The translations under genes were made by a program, and so were the position numbers. From Fictibacillus arsenicus (GTDB lineage: Bacteria; Bacillota; Bacilli; Bacillales; Fictibacillaceae), in assembly GCF_001642935.1 (NCBI RefSeq), contig NZ_CP016761.1, positions 868,001 to 932,000 on the forward strand: a stretch of DNA of 64,000 bases, read 5' to 3'. Below are positions 6,024 through 49,922 of this stretch, piece by piece. Numbering within the stretch: the stretch's first letter is position 1; each line of letters opens with the position of its first letter. The notes under the pieces were generated by a model, which was given only the letters and a program-made list of their open reading frames with translations, was not told the origin of the DNA and did no database searches.

Positions 6024-6342
6024 GCCCTCCATCGAGGGAGGCCACTGAAAATCCGGTTGATTACACCGGTTTTTCTTTTTTTGCCTACAAACATGTAAGG
6101 ATTGTAGCGGAAGGGTACTGACTCCTCGAAAATGAAATTCACATTTTCTTCGTGAGAGGCAAAGCTGTCGAAGCCTTCCTTGTCCTGCGGGACGAGTGGG
6201 ACAGGTGAGACCCCTAAAGGCGCGTAGCGGCAGGGGGCTCACCGCCCGCCCCACGGAAAGCATGTACCCTGGAGCGGAGATCCCCGCATTCAACAGATTA
6301 TTTAGAGACTTTTTCAAAGCCCTCCATCGAGGAGCTTTTTTG
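6022..6342. other. Convergent intergenic region with duplicated terminator-like segment
   Basis: The 319 bases between converging genes hold repeat copy A (6100-6285) and two copies of the same 16-bp sequence AAGCCCTCCATCGAGG, at 6022-6037 and 6317-6332. The right-hand copy leads into a T-run (6336-6341) and can end the acetyltransferase transcript; a CCGGT/ACCGG hairpin with T-run at 6053-6081 follows the left copy. No gene is seen here. Confidence 0.6.
6100..6285 (+). repeat. Dispersed palindromic element, copy A (long form)
   Basis: One of six related elements in the window. Shared core: CAGGTGAGAC and GGCTCACCG arms, then CGGAAAGC. This copy carries the about 60-bp extra segment also present in copy C (TTCGAAGCCTTCCTTGTCC). 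Its ends are decayed relative to the GTTGAT/ATCAAC termini of copies B, C, E and F. Confidence 0.8.
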
Positions 6343-10053: not shown

Positions 10054-11567
10054 CAGACCGTAGACAAACCCCTTTTCACTATAAATTGAAAAGGGGTTTG
10101 TCCTGTTTTTAGCTTTTTTTAGTTAAGATATCAAGCTGGGCATGGCTCTCGCCATGTCCAGTTTGCCAGTTTTTTAAGGTTCATGGCAGCGAAAGTAAGC
10201 ATCGCCTGCATGGACACTTTTTTAAGCCCTCTGAGCTTCGTCCATCGCATACCATGCTTTTCTTTTGCATCCGCAAAAACACGTTCAATCGTTTCTTTTC
10301 GCTTTGCATACATTTCTTTATTCTCTTCAGTATGTCGGAGGTGATTGGCTTCTTCGAGATAATCCTCCCAGATGTGCCTGTGAATCATCTTTATGTGCTG
10401 TTGGCTCTGTGTACATTGAGAGAGTACTGGACAGTTTTGGCACTTCAAAGGATTGGAAGCGTATTGACGATAGCCCTCACGGGTCGTCGTTCTATACGAT
10501 AAAATCTCACCTTGTGGGCATATGTATTGATCATAGTATTCATCGTAGACGTACTCGTATTTCTTAAAGAAACCATCTTTTGTTTTGGGTCTGGTATATG
10601 GCATCACGGGACGGATTTCCTGATCTATTAAATACTTAGCGATAGCTGGCGTTTTATATCCTGCATCAACGGCAAGGGCAGTTGGTGTTCCTACATTTTC
10701 GATCAACTGATTCATCAATGGCTCGAGCATTCGACTGTCATGAACATTGGCTCCTGTGACTAAACTTCCTAATATAAATCCTCTCGAGTCGCTGGCTGTA
10801 TGAAAGGAATAGGCAAACAATTTCTCTCGTTCATCCTTCACATAGTAGCCACTCTCAGGATCAGTCGTACTTATTTTCACTTCTTTAGTTTCAATCTTCG
10901 TTTGAGGGGGTAATGGCTTTTTTCCGTGTTCCTCACGGTCAACATTAATTTCTTCTTCTAATAAGTTCTGATAGCTACGCGTTTCAACACGAACTGTTTT
11001 CTTATCGAACTTCTTTTTATTGGCGTTTGCTTTCACATGTGTGGAATCAATAAACGCAACAGTTGGATCAACCAATCCATGATTCATCGCTTCACGAAGA
11101 ATACGGTAGAAGATTTGTTCAAAGAGATCACTATCGTGAAAACGGCGTGCGTAGTTCTTACCGAAGGTTGAAAAATGAGGTATCTTCTCACTAAAGTCAT
11201 AGCCTAAAAACCATCGATAAGCGACGTTTGTTTCAATCTCTTTAATCGTTTGACGCATGGAGCGAATACCAAACAGGTACTGGATTAAGACCATTTTGAT
11301 AAGAACAACTGGATCTACACTCGGTCTGCCATTATCTAGTGAATATGTATGTTTTACTGCATCATAAATAAAATCAAAGTCCATAACTTGATCAATTTTA
11401 CGTACTAAATGATCCTGAGGTACAAGCTCGTCGAGAGCTGCTAAAGTTACTTGATGACGTCCTTCAGTAGAATGCTTAGATAACATGTTAATTTCTCCCC
11501 TCAAACATTATCTAGTTTAATTCTACAATAAAAAAAGCTTGTAGACATATACTTTGTCTACAAGCTG
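10054..11567 (-). mobile_element. Complete IS1182-family insertion sequence (1514 bp)
   Basis: The ends are CAGACCGTAGACAAA (10054) and, inverted, CAGCTTGTAGACAAA (ending 11567), matching at 12 of 15 positions. It is flanked by a 24-bp direct repeat consisting of a whole terminator hairpin. One intact transposase gene fills the element. A 16-bp perfect hairpin (10063-10078 with 10087-10102) built on the inverted repeat lies just inside the left end. The intact ends, reading frame and duplication point to a recent insertion. Confidence 0.92.
10131..11486 (-). CDS. IS1182-family transposase
   Basis: A 451-residue DDE transposase. The N-terminal DUF772-type region carries GRPSVDPVVLIKMVLIQYL, followed by the IS4/IS5-like catalytic core: Asp in AFIDSTHV, Asp in LAVDAGYKT and Glu in TIERVFADAKEKHGMRW, the usual DDE triad with the ERxFxxxK signature. 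A four-cysteine patch (CPQG...CQNCPVLSQC) in the C-terminal third is typical for this family. The start ATG at 11486 follows AGGGGAGAA. There is no frameshift or stop, so the element is predicted active. Confidence 0.93.
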   Translation of the reverse strand: MLSKHSTEGRHQVTLAALDELVPQDHLVRKIDQVMDFDFIYDAVKHTYSLDNGRPSVDPVVLIKMVLIQYLFGIRSMRQTIKEIETNVAYRWFLGYDFSEKIPHFSTFGKNYARRFHDSDLFEQIFYRILREAMNHGLVDPTVAFIDSTHVKANANKKKFDKKTVRVETRSYQNLLEEEINVDREEHGKKPLPPQTKIETKEVKISTTDPESGYYVKDEREKLFAYSFHTASDSRGFILGSLVTGANVHDSRMLEPLMNQLIENVGTPTALAVDAGYKTPAIAKYLIDQEIRPVMPYTRPKTKDGFFKKYEYVYDEYYDQYICPQGEILSYRTTTREGYRQYASNPLKCQNCPVLSQCTQSQQHIKMIHRHIWEDYLEEANHLRHTEENKEMYAKRKETIERVFADAKEKHGMRWTKLRGLKKVSMQAMLTFAAMNLKKLANWTWREPCPA

Positions 11568-11592
11568 AAAAGCCCCTGAAAAGGGGCTTTTT
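11568..11592. terminator. Terminator, right copy of target duplication
   Basis: Same hairpin as at 10030-10053. On the reverse strand it ends the transcript of the small peptide gene at 11642. Before insertion, one bidirectional terminator probably served both converging genes. Confidence 0.8.
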
Positions 11593-11641
11593 GCTTTAGA
11601 AGAAAAGAATTACTCACAACAGCTAATAGATTTTATCTGAA

Positions 11642-11812
11642 TTAGTTTTTAGAGTTCTTTTTATATGATTCTAAAACATTTTTAATAGCTTCAACTAGGT
11701 CTGTCTCAGAAGAAATACCTTCAGCAGGAACAGTGCTGTTACTGCTAGCTTCGATTGTAATCTTTAATTTACTTTCAGCTGAACTTTGATTTTCTTGGTT
11801 TTTAGCCAACAT
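11642..11812 (-). CDS. Small peptide 1, CWE-peptide paralogue, C-terminus frameshifted
   Basis: A 56-residue open frame of unknown family. The start ATG at 11812 is preceded by GGAGGTGATT. Its first 45 residues closely match peptide 2 (MLAK-x-QENQ, LKITIEA, DLVEA...VL). After KNS the two diverge: here a five-A run leads to an early stop, but adding one A restores a frame running to ISCCE and a stop at the place where peptide 2 reads ISDSCWE. So this copy has either lost one base and its tail, or uses slippage. Acidic/polar N-terminal part, no signal peptide or transmembrane segment. Function unknown. Confidence 0.55.
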   Translation of the reverse strand: MLAKNQENQSSAESKLKITIEASSNSTVPAEGISSETDLVEAIKNVLESYKKNSKN

Positions 11813-11827
11813 AATCACCTCCACTAA

Positions 11828-11876
11828 TACTATATGAAGTGGCAGAATGAGTGCTTGTACGTATCACCATTTTTTA
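11828..11876 (-). promoter_or_regulatory. Conserved upstream block of peptide 1 with CATATAGTA -10-like element
   Basis: On the reverse strand, CATATAGTA at 11828-11836 fits the CATANNNTA -10 pattern of the mother-cell factors SigE/SigK, and the segment 11851-11876 (GTACAAGCAC with flanks) is conserved before all three small genes. The -35 match to either factor is poor. The spacing leaves only about six bases before the ribosome site. Confidence 0.4.
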
Positions 11877-11958
11877 AAAATTTTAGTGATTATGCAGGAA
11901 TGATTGCAGCGGTTTATTTTAAAGGCTGTTTTCGTTTACTCTGTTGCTCTTGTAAGTG

Positions 11959-12085
11959 GTTGATTCCAGTTCCAGGATGCTCGCTTTCCGCGGGGCGTCC
12001 GGTGAGCCCCTGGCACGTTGCGCCTTAGGGGTCTCACCTGTCCCGCTCGTCCCGCATGATTCTCGCACCTTGCACTCCAATCAAC
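11959..12085 (-). repeat. Dispersed palindromic element, copy B (short form)
   Basis: A 127-bp copy in reverse orientation with clean GTTGATT and AATCAAC ends and the CTTTCCGCGGGGCG core. It sits between small peptides 1 and 2. The sequence from 11921 (GGCTGTTTTCG) to the left end also matches the flank of copy C and, inverted, copy F, so the conserved unit may be somewhat longer. Confidence 0.85.
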
Positions 12086-12128
12086 TAGCCAAGAAGCGAA
12101 TTTAAGAGAAAAGAGCGATTTTGAATGA

Positions 12129-12160
12129 TAAAAAGCCCCTTAACTGGGGGCTTTTTACTT
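12129..12160. terminator. Terminator of small peptide 2
   Basis: An AAAAAGCCCC/GGGGGCTTTTT stem immediately behind the reverse-strand stop of the gene at 12174. It resembles the IS1182 target hairpin at the same place behind peptide 1, consistent with tandem duplication of the whole unit. Confidence 0.75.
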
Positions 12161-12173
12161 TAGAAGAAAAGAA

Positions 12174-12389
12174 TTACTCCCAACAGCTGTCACTAATATT
12201 TTTGCTCTTGTTAGTGGCAGGGGTCTTCTGTTTTAGATATTTGTCTAAAACAGCTCTAAGTGCTTCAACAAGATCGTTGTTATTAGCAATACCTTCAATA
12301 AGAGAACCGGTATTGCTGCTGTCAGCTTCGATTGTAATCTTTAAATTACTTTCAGCTGTATTTTGATTTTCTTGGTCTTTAGCCAACAT
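12174..12389 (-). CDS. Small peptide 2 (71 aa) with C-terminal Ser-Cys-Trp-Glu
   Basis: A 71-residue peptide of unknown family, intact paralogue of peptide 1. The start ATG at 12389 has GGAGGTGATT directly upstream; an in-frame GTG four codons earlier is part of the ribosome site. The N-terminal half (QENQNTAESNLKITIEADSS) and central helix (DLVEALRAVLDKYLKQ) are polar. The C-terminus KNISDSCWE carries the only Cys and Trp. No signal peptide, membrane segment or known domain. The promoter block is nearly identical to that of peptide 1. Function unknown; a spore-associated small protein or precursor peptide are possibilities. Confidence 0.6.
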   Translation of the reverse strand: MLAKDQENQNTAESNLKITIEADSSNTGSLIEGIANNNDLVEALRAVLDKYLKQKTPATNKSKNISDSCWE

Positions 12390-12404
12390 AATCACCTCCA
12401 CTAA

Positions 12405-12452
12405 TACTATATGAAGTGGGAGAAGCTGTGCTTGTACGTATCACCATTTTTT
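12405..12452 (-). promoter_or_regulatory. Conserved upstream block of peptide 2 with CATATAGTA element
   Basis: CATATAGTA at 12405-12413 (reverse strand) and the conserved GTACAAGCAC block at 12428-12452, both in the same spacing as before peptide 1. Confidence 0.4.
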
Positions 12453-12534
12453 TAGTGTTTAACCAGATAAATTTTGTTTTATAGTTTTCCAGTTGTTTTT
12501 GAAAATCAGCCGTCGTTTTTTTATCTGAAAGGCA

Positions 12535-12714
12535 TTACTCCCAACAATTTTCATTAGAAGCTGAAAGCCCTATTCCTCCAGGGCCATTCTTTTTGCCTTT
12601 TTCAGCAGAAGCTTTTTTATCAGTCTGTTCAACTTGTTCAGCAGAAGCGTTTGTATCAGTCTGTTCAACTTGTTCAGCAGACTTTTTTGCTTTTTCGTTT
12701 TTTTTCTTGCCCAA
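12535..12714 (-). CDS. Small peptide 3 (59 aa) with C-terminal Asn-Cys-Trp-Glu
   Basis: A 59-residue, very lysine/glutamate-rich peptide. A TTG at 12714 is chosen as start because GGGGGTGATC lies before it, the counterpart of the ribosome site of peptides 1 and 2; a longer ATG frame would run through the conserved promoter block. It contains two copies of SAEQVEQTD and a third partial one, then a glycine-rich GPGGIG segment and the tail SNENCWE. Only the last three residues are shared with peptide 2, so the CWE tail and the promoter are conserved while the body is not. Function unknown. Confidence 0.5.
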   Translation of the reverse strand: MGKKKNEKAKKSAEQVEQTDTNASAEQVEQTDKKASAEKGKKNGPGGIGLSASNENCWE

Positions 12715-12731
12715 AAGATCACCCCCACTAT

Positions 12732-12782
12732 CACTATATGTATCTGGAGAGGGAGTGCTTGTACAAATCACTATTTTCTTTT
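12732..12782 (-). promoter_or_regulatory. Conserved upstream block of peptide 3
   Basis: CATATAGTG at 12732-12740 on the reverse strand (one base off CATANNNTA) with the same GTACAAGCAC block at 12755-12782. Confidence 0.35.
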
Positions 12783-49793: not shown

Positions 49794-49922
49794 GTTGATT
49801 GGAGCGAAAGGTGCGAGACTCTGCGGGATCAGCGGGACAGGTGAGACTCCTAAGGGCGCATGGCGCCGAGGAGGCTCACCGCACGCCCCGCGGAAAGCGA
49901 GCATCCTGTAGTGGAGATCAAC
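49794..49922 (+). repeat. Dispersed palindromic element, copy E (short form) inside the operon
   Basis: A 129-bp copy with GTTGATT start and GATCAAC end, lying in the 295-bp gap between the dehydrogenase and hydratase genes, which otherwise read in the same direction. No terminator-like T-run follows its stem, so transcription may pass through it. It may affect RNA processing between the upper and lower pathway genes. Confidence 0.87.

Follow-up and report, generated by a model that had tools for sequence, protein, structure and literature searches.

The window, that is, the whole stretch of 64,000 nucleotides from Fictibacillus arsenicus that was analysed, carries three short reverse-strand genes or gene remnants, designated copies 1 to 3, each of which is preceded by a conserved upstream block (Table 1). 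The blocks consist of GTACAAGCAC, exactly 14 bases, CATATAGTA/G, and then GGAGGTGAT or GGGGGTGAT. Copies 2 and 3 both end in Cys-Trp-Glu (CWE), as a preliminary description of this DNA had stated.

Table 1. Features of the three-copy locus, in window positions
Feature	Position	Strand	Description
Promoter block, copy 3	12732..12777	-	AAAATAGTGATTTGTACAAGCAC-N14-CATATAGTG; pattern match 12732-12764
Copy 3	12535..12714	-	ORF of 59 aa from probable TTG start; begins LGKKKNEK; nine-residue repeat SAEQVEQTD twice; ends NENCWE
Promoter block, copy 2	12405..12450	-	Pattern match 12405-12437
Copy 2	12174..12386	-	ORF of 70 aa from probable TTG start; helix predicted for residues 36-52 (around VEALRAVLDKYL); C-terminus SDSCWE
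Terminator-like hairpin and T run, 3' of copy 2	12130..12156 (limits approximate)	-	Identified by eye
Promoter block, copy 1	11828..11873	-	Pattern match 11828-11860
Copy 1	11642..11809	-	Body paralogous to copy 2; shortened by frame change; ends KNSKN
Tail relic of copy 1	11609..11620	-	Reads Cys-Cys-Glu-stop in a frame other than that of the body; behind the early stop
Terminator-like hairpin, 3' of copy 1	11567..11592 (limits approximate)	-	Identified by eye

The three copies and their upstream block

Based on the likeness to the ORFs of other genomes, translation probably starts at TTG (12386 in copy 2 and 12714 in copy 3) and not at the GTG within the ribosome-binding site. Copies 1 and 2 share 59% identity over residues 1-55, so that two body types, not three, are present in the window. 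The preliminary description had proposed a family of three peptides, reading Cys-Cys-Glu for copy 1 in a shifted frame; this relic does lie behind the stop of copy 1, whereas copy 1 itself is best seen, from its sequence, as a frame-shifted paralogue of copy 2, namely a decaying tandem duplicate, and not as a third peptide. A terminator-like hairpin was also recognized by eye 3' of the ORF in all 15 loci from other genomes, and none is evident by eye downstream of copy 3. With hairpins behind most of the ORFs, most copies would probably be single-gene units. Directly downstream of copy 1, window positions 10131-11504 hold a transposase ORF without internal stop and with DDE_Tnp_1_6 and DUF772 domains, presumably an IS1182-type element, which may have inserted beside the duplicated gene. 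A GC-rich dispersed repeat, CAGGTGAGACCCCTNAGGCG, was observed at about 11950-12085 (between copies 1 and 2), 6202-6221 and 49838-49857; these are three window matches at up to three mismatches, against 0.01 expected.

The pattern GTACAAGCAC-(5 to 25 bases)-CATATAGTR had three matches in the genome of 4.06 Mb, all inside the window and on the reverse strand, and the reversed-pattern control matched nowhere. The near-identical, fixed-spacing blocks of the preliminary description were thus recovered, and exact matches occur nowhere else in the genome. When up to three mismatches were allowed, five matches were obtained against three for the control, so that only the three window matches (0, 0 and 1 mismatch) stand out. 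All six additional sites in the own genome at three mismatches, two from this search (control, three in all) and four from a second one (control, one), were inspected, and no similar small gene follows any of them. The site at genome position 1312317 precedes a longer ORF that was read as spermidine synthase-like. Without a close second site elsewhere in the genome, the block defines no regulon in which coat genes could be looked for. The consensus over the 18 copies from the genus, rounded from the 70-90% line, is about AAAATGGTGATTCGTACAAGCACTC-N13-TTCATATAGTAATAGTGGGGGTGAT, and both the spacer inside the block and the DNA upstream of it are free to vary.

Regarding transcription, the form CATAnnnTA, which we take to be the -10 form of sigma-K, fits 17 of the 18 copies; the sequence at this position is CATATAGTA in 16 of them, CATATTGTA in one genome (G012) and CATATAGTG in copy 3 of the window. 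ACAAGC in the block resembles what we assume to be the core of the SpoIIID site. A fixed upstream block combined with this -10 would point to a promoter that depends on help from an activator, and SpoIIID or GerE was considered as a candidate. For Clostridioides difficile, PMC3789822 quotes CATATATA, CATATTAT and CATATAAT as -10 boxes of the mother cell, and the -10 of the block fits this type, in agreement with the mother-cell sigma factor proposed in the preliminary description. The proposal is half supported, with no -35 element assigned: the same text gives AC for sigma-K and ATA for sigma-E in C. difficile, with a classical spacing of 16-18, and AC occurs 14 and 20 bases ahead of CATA, outside this spacing. 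For sigma-K of B. subtilis, PMC517825 describes two elements, of 5 and 10 bases, that are separated by 14-16 bases; measured between such elements, the spacing in the block may still fit. According to that text, its motif search omitted promoters with a strong dependence on GerE.

A genus-restricted gene at one chromosomal site

The block was found, at up to three mismatches, in 16 of the 18 Fictibacillus genomes, once in each except for the three occurrences in the window strain, and in none of 16 genomes from three other genera of the same family. A shorter block pattern gave exact matches in 14 of the 18. An exact scan for GTGnTnnGTACAAGCAS-N14-CATATWGT over one genome per species (84,980 species, with the own genome or close kin possibly left out) yielded 10 loci, all of which belong to Fictibacillus records. 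In each of the 15 other block-bearing genomes, the block stands ahead of one short ORF.

The neighbourhood of this ORF is also retained. An M20 peptidase gene lies next to it in convergent orientation in 14 of the 15 loci, and in the fifteenth (G012) the contig stops 160 bases past the small gene, before any M20 gene. On the other flank, the stretch examined includes a gene for an ALO-type FAD oxidase at 13 of the 15 loci, and it is not always adjacent: two other genes intervene in G001 and G009, and one ORF in G007. One of the two intervening genes at L045 (G001) and L048 (G009) is a LysR-type regulator, as judged by its start. Family searches, which covered five window proteins, assigned the neighbours as an AbgT transporter, an M20 peptidase, an ALO-type FAD oxidase and an MFS protein. 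In the two genomes without a block (G016 and G017), the DNA that follows the M20 gene contains no small gene either; the M20 gene of G017 is 75% identical, has another neighbour and may not mark the same site. As the M20 and oxidase genes persist in G016 with no small gene between them, these neighbours look like bystanders. In the gap behind the M20 gene of G016 (L071), short repeats of the ATCCACGGTAATCC type occur in imperfect form.

A profile built from 17 members, without copy 1, was searched against 397 genomes of the order, an evenly drawn sample that may lack some of the 18 genus genomes and in which G016 was included and unmatched. Twelve genomes were matched, 11 from the genus and one from outside (G095, E 0.004). 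The G095 match falls in the Lys-rich end of a protein read as a phage holin and was dropped, leaving no credible relative outside the genus among the 397 genomes. Neither the copy 2 protein as a query against genome contigs nor a tblastn search against plasmids revealed a relative. When the 17 members were scanned, the best matches in Pfam (E 0.008) and NCBIfam (E 0.011) were to families without an evident link, and curated cut-offs were not reached (cut-offs viewed for copies 1-3 and the first alignment member). Titles and the opening parts of abstracts on CWE or SCWE spore proteins, the Fictibacillus coat and rapidly evolving coat genes contained nothing relevant. The preliminary statement that no family with this tail had been described is borne out in that no credible Pfam or NCBIfam match was obtained. 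On the evidence of sequence and gene order, the small gene is one orthologous, genus-restricted gene at one syntenic site, with no Pfam or NCBIfam match, that has been copied in tandem in the window strain.

Protein anatomy, selection and the C-terminal tail

The encoded proteins, with ORF lengths of 59 to 149 aa, usually consist of a basic head (LGKK or MSKK), a spacer that varies in length and contains Ser, Gly and PNGKG-like words, a VEALRSLL-like stretch, a Lys/Ser tract such as KSKKSSKKCKKS, and a terminal D-x-C-W-E. The VEALRSLL-like stretch was detected by a simple pattern in 12 of 17 ORFs, and variants were recognized by eye in G001, G009 and copy 2. Copy 3 has no helix-like stretch and carries the tail E-N-C-W-E, and copy 2 has no strong Lys/Ser tract. 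Exact internal repeats of at least five residues are present in 6 of the 17 ORFs, those of nine residues only in G012 and copy 3. The net charge is +3 to +19 in all 15 ORFs of other genomes; it is -3 for copy 2 and +1 for copy 3. The charge-hydropathy fold index is negative in 18 of 18 sequences, barely so in copies 1 and 2 (-0.01 and -0.04). A strongly hydrophobic stretch is absent; the highest 19-residue hydropathy mean, 1.03, is below the usual level of membrane segments. AlphaFold2 modelling of copy 2, based on an alignment of 16 rows that omitted G007 and copy 1, gave a mean pLDDT of 58.9, a low value that also fits a poor alignment, and a single helix at residues 36-52. These predictions describe a mostly disordered protein with one short helix-like stretch in most copies.

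Selection was estimated from seven close genomes of the 15, which were picked for alignability and represent nearly one body type. The mean pairwise dN was 0.060 and dS 0.239, with a ratio of about 0.25 (21 pairs, 0.11 to 0.84), and changes in length stay in frame. Tail codons vary synonymously (TGT/TGC, GAA/GAG, TAA/TAG), implying that the tail is held in amino acids and not in bases. These comparisons at the nucleotide level show a real, fast-evolving protein under purifying but loose selection. For three neighbour genes in the same seven genomes, the mean dN was 0.019 to 0.035 and dS 0.51 to 0.59. At 0.24, the small gene has roughly half the dS of these neighbours; strong codon bias is one possibility behind the lower value.

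The tail CWE is present in 13 of the 15 ORFs from other genomes in addition to copies 2 and 3, and these 15 tails are borne by about eight distinct bodies, as grouped by eye from the alignment. The exceptions are G007, which ends in FVVSD, and G010, which ends in FVDSD. Same-tail homologues, whose absence from related genomes had been named as refuting the proposed family, do exist within the genus, so that this check favoured the preliminary description; the tail is not universal. The idea of a conserved promoter and terminus around a variable body, which had been drawn from the window, holds genus-wide. The exchanged tail of G007 and G010, together with the lack of the gene at the sites inspected in G016 and G017, implies that it is dispensable. 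A search for the tail pattern TGYTGGGARTRR in the 18 genus genomes gave 113 matches, at 3 to 13 per genome, and the reversed control gave 77, at 1 to 9 per genome; the known tails account for 15 of the 113, and the 98 left are a modest excess over 77. G007 gave 13 matches against 2 in its control; eight of its sites were inspected and share no common gene, and this excess is probably due to chance or composition. Together with 23 further non-family loci (about 30 of the 98), these sites revealed no further gene of the CWE-tail kind; the inspected frames ending in CWE-stop measure 3 to 51 aa, and none is family-like.

Proposed function and relation to known systems

We consider that the gene may encode a small, mostly disordered structural protein of the mother cell that is destined for the spore surface and bears a C-terminal attachment tail, and we give this reading a probability of about one half. 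The gene would be transcribed late in the mother cell by RNA polymerase with sigma-K or sigma-E, together with an activator acting on the conserved block, which spans about 24 bases, and the protein would then be laid onto the forming spore. The CWE tail may dock on, or become disulfide-linked to, a coat partner, and the variable body would serve as a spacer or filler in which length and charge outweigh sequence. CotH (PF08757) was found in none of the 18 Fictibacillus genomes by a search that was positive in 3 of 14 control genomes including B. subtilis, and CotZ (PF10612) in none of the 18 by a search that was positive in B. subtilis; this leaves room for lineage-specific surface proteins. 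A bolder and rather doubtful extension is that Asp-x-Cys-Trp-Glu represents a new spore-surface attachment signal, sufficient by itself to bring almost any disordered body to the spore and perhaps cross-linking through its Cys, in a genus that yielded neither CotH nor CotZ.

Other roles can be weighed against the same data. A regulator or adaptor of the mother cell or stationary phase, in which CWE binds one partner, would account for the observation that good alignment is confined to the helix-like stretch, the Lys-rich part and the tail; the low-complexity body, the species-specific repeats and the wide range of lengths would be more typical of a surface filler, and we regard such a non-structural role as unlikely. 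The preliminary description had favoured a set of tagged or processed peptides. A RiPP or pheromone-like peptide, with the Trp or Cys near the C-terminus as the modified core, would suit the combination of a conserved Cys-Trp-Glu with a variable upstream part, and ComX-type pheromones do bear a modified Trp near the C-terminus. Several observations disagree with this. No modification enzyme was seen beside the gene among the five window proteins searched for families, the M20 and oxidase genes remain in G016 where the small gene is missing, and no strongly hydrophobic segment for export is present. As, moreover, the other genomes hold one gene each and no further tailed gene appeared among the sites inspected, the idea of a peptide set is not supported, and a modified or processed peptide is judged very unlikely. 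Conservation is far higher in the promoter block than in the body, which might even suggest that the locus is no protein gene and instead a conserved element of DNA or RNA whose ORFs are fortuitous; the dN/dS of about 0.25 and in-frame length changes in the seven close genomes, and the synonymous variation of the tail codons, make this explanation extremely improbable.

If the spore-surface reading is true, Fictibacillus would possess a surface protein of its own, in which a three-residue terminus is nearly fixed while the rest drifts. Such a protein would offer a simple system for studying the recruitment of coat proteins by short tails, possibly a tag for spore display, and a hint as to how a genus without recognizable CotH and CotZ builds its spore surface.

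Among known systems, the precursors of ComX-type pheromones resemble the CWE proteins in being short and variable in sequence with a Trp near the C-terminus; in contrast, no prenyl transferase-like gene was seen among the family-searched neighbours, and the -10 of the block is of the mother-cell type. BclA-type exosporium proteins join a short fixed targeting segment to a variable body. The CWE family shares this design, whereas its fixed segment is C-terminal and no collagen-type Gly-X-Y domain is evident by eye. CotG and the CotG-like proteins of Bacillus, as presented in PMC9765600, are small, modular, mostly positive and disordered, features that the CWE proteins would share at least in part. 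Their centre differs between species and bears repeats in some of them; CotG uses its central repeats as spacers and its termini as the interacting parts. CotG-like proteins share no sequence among themselves according to that text, and a missing sequence match therefore decides nothing here. The charge of the CWE family is far lower than that of CotG, copies 2 and 3 being near neutral (-3 and +1) against +57 in the same source, and clear tandem repeats are missing in most members. Since CotH was found in none of the 18 genomes, the gene order with cotH that marks CotG-like proteins cannot hold, and the family is not classed as CotG-like. By analogy of architecture, CotG would nevertheless be the closest functional model for the CWE proteins.
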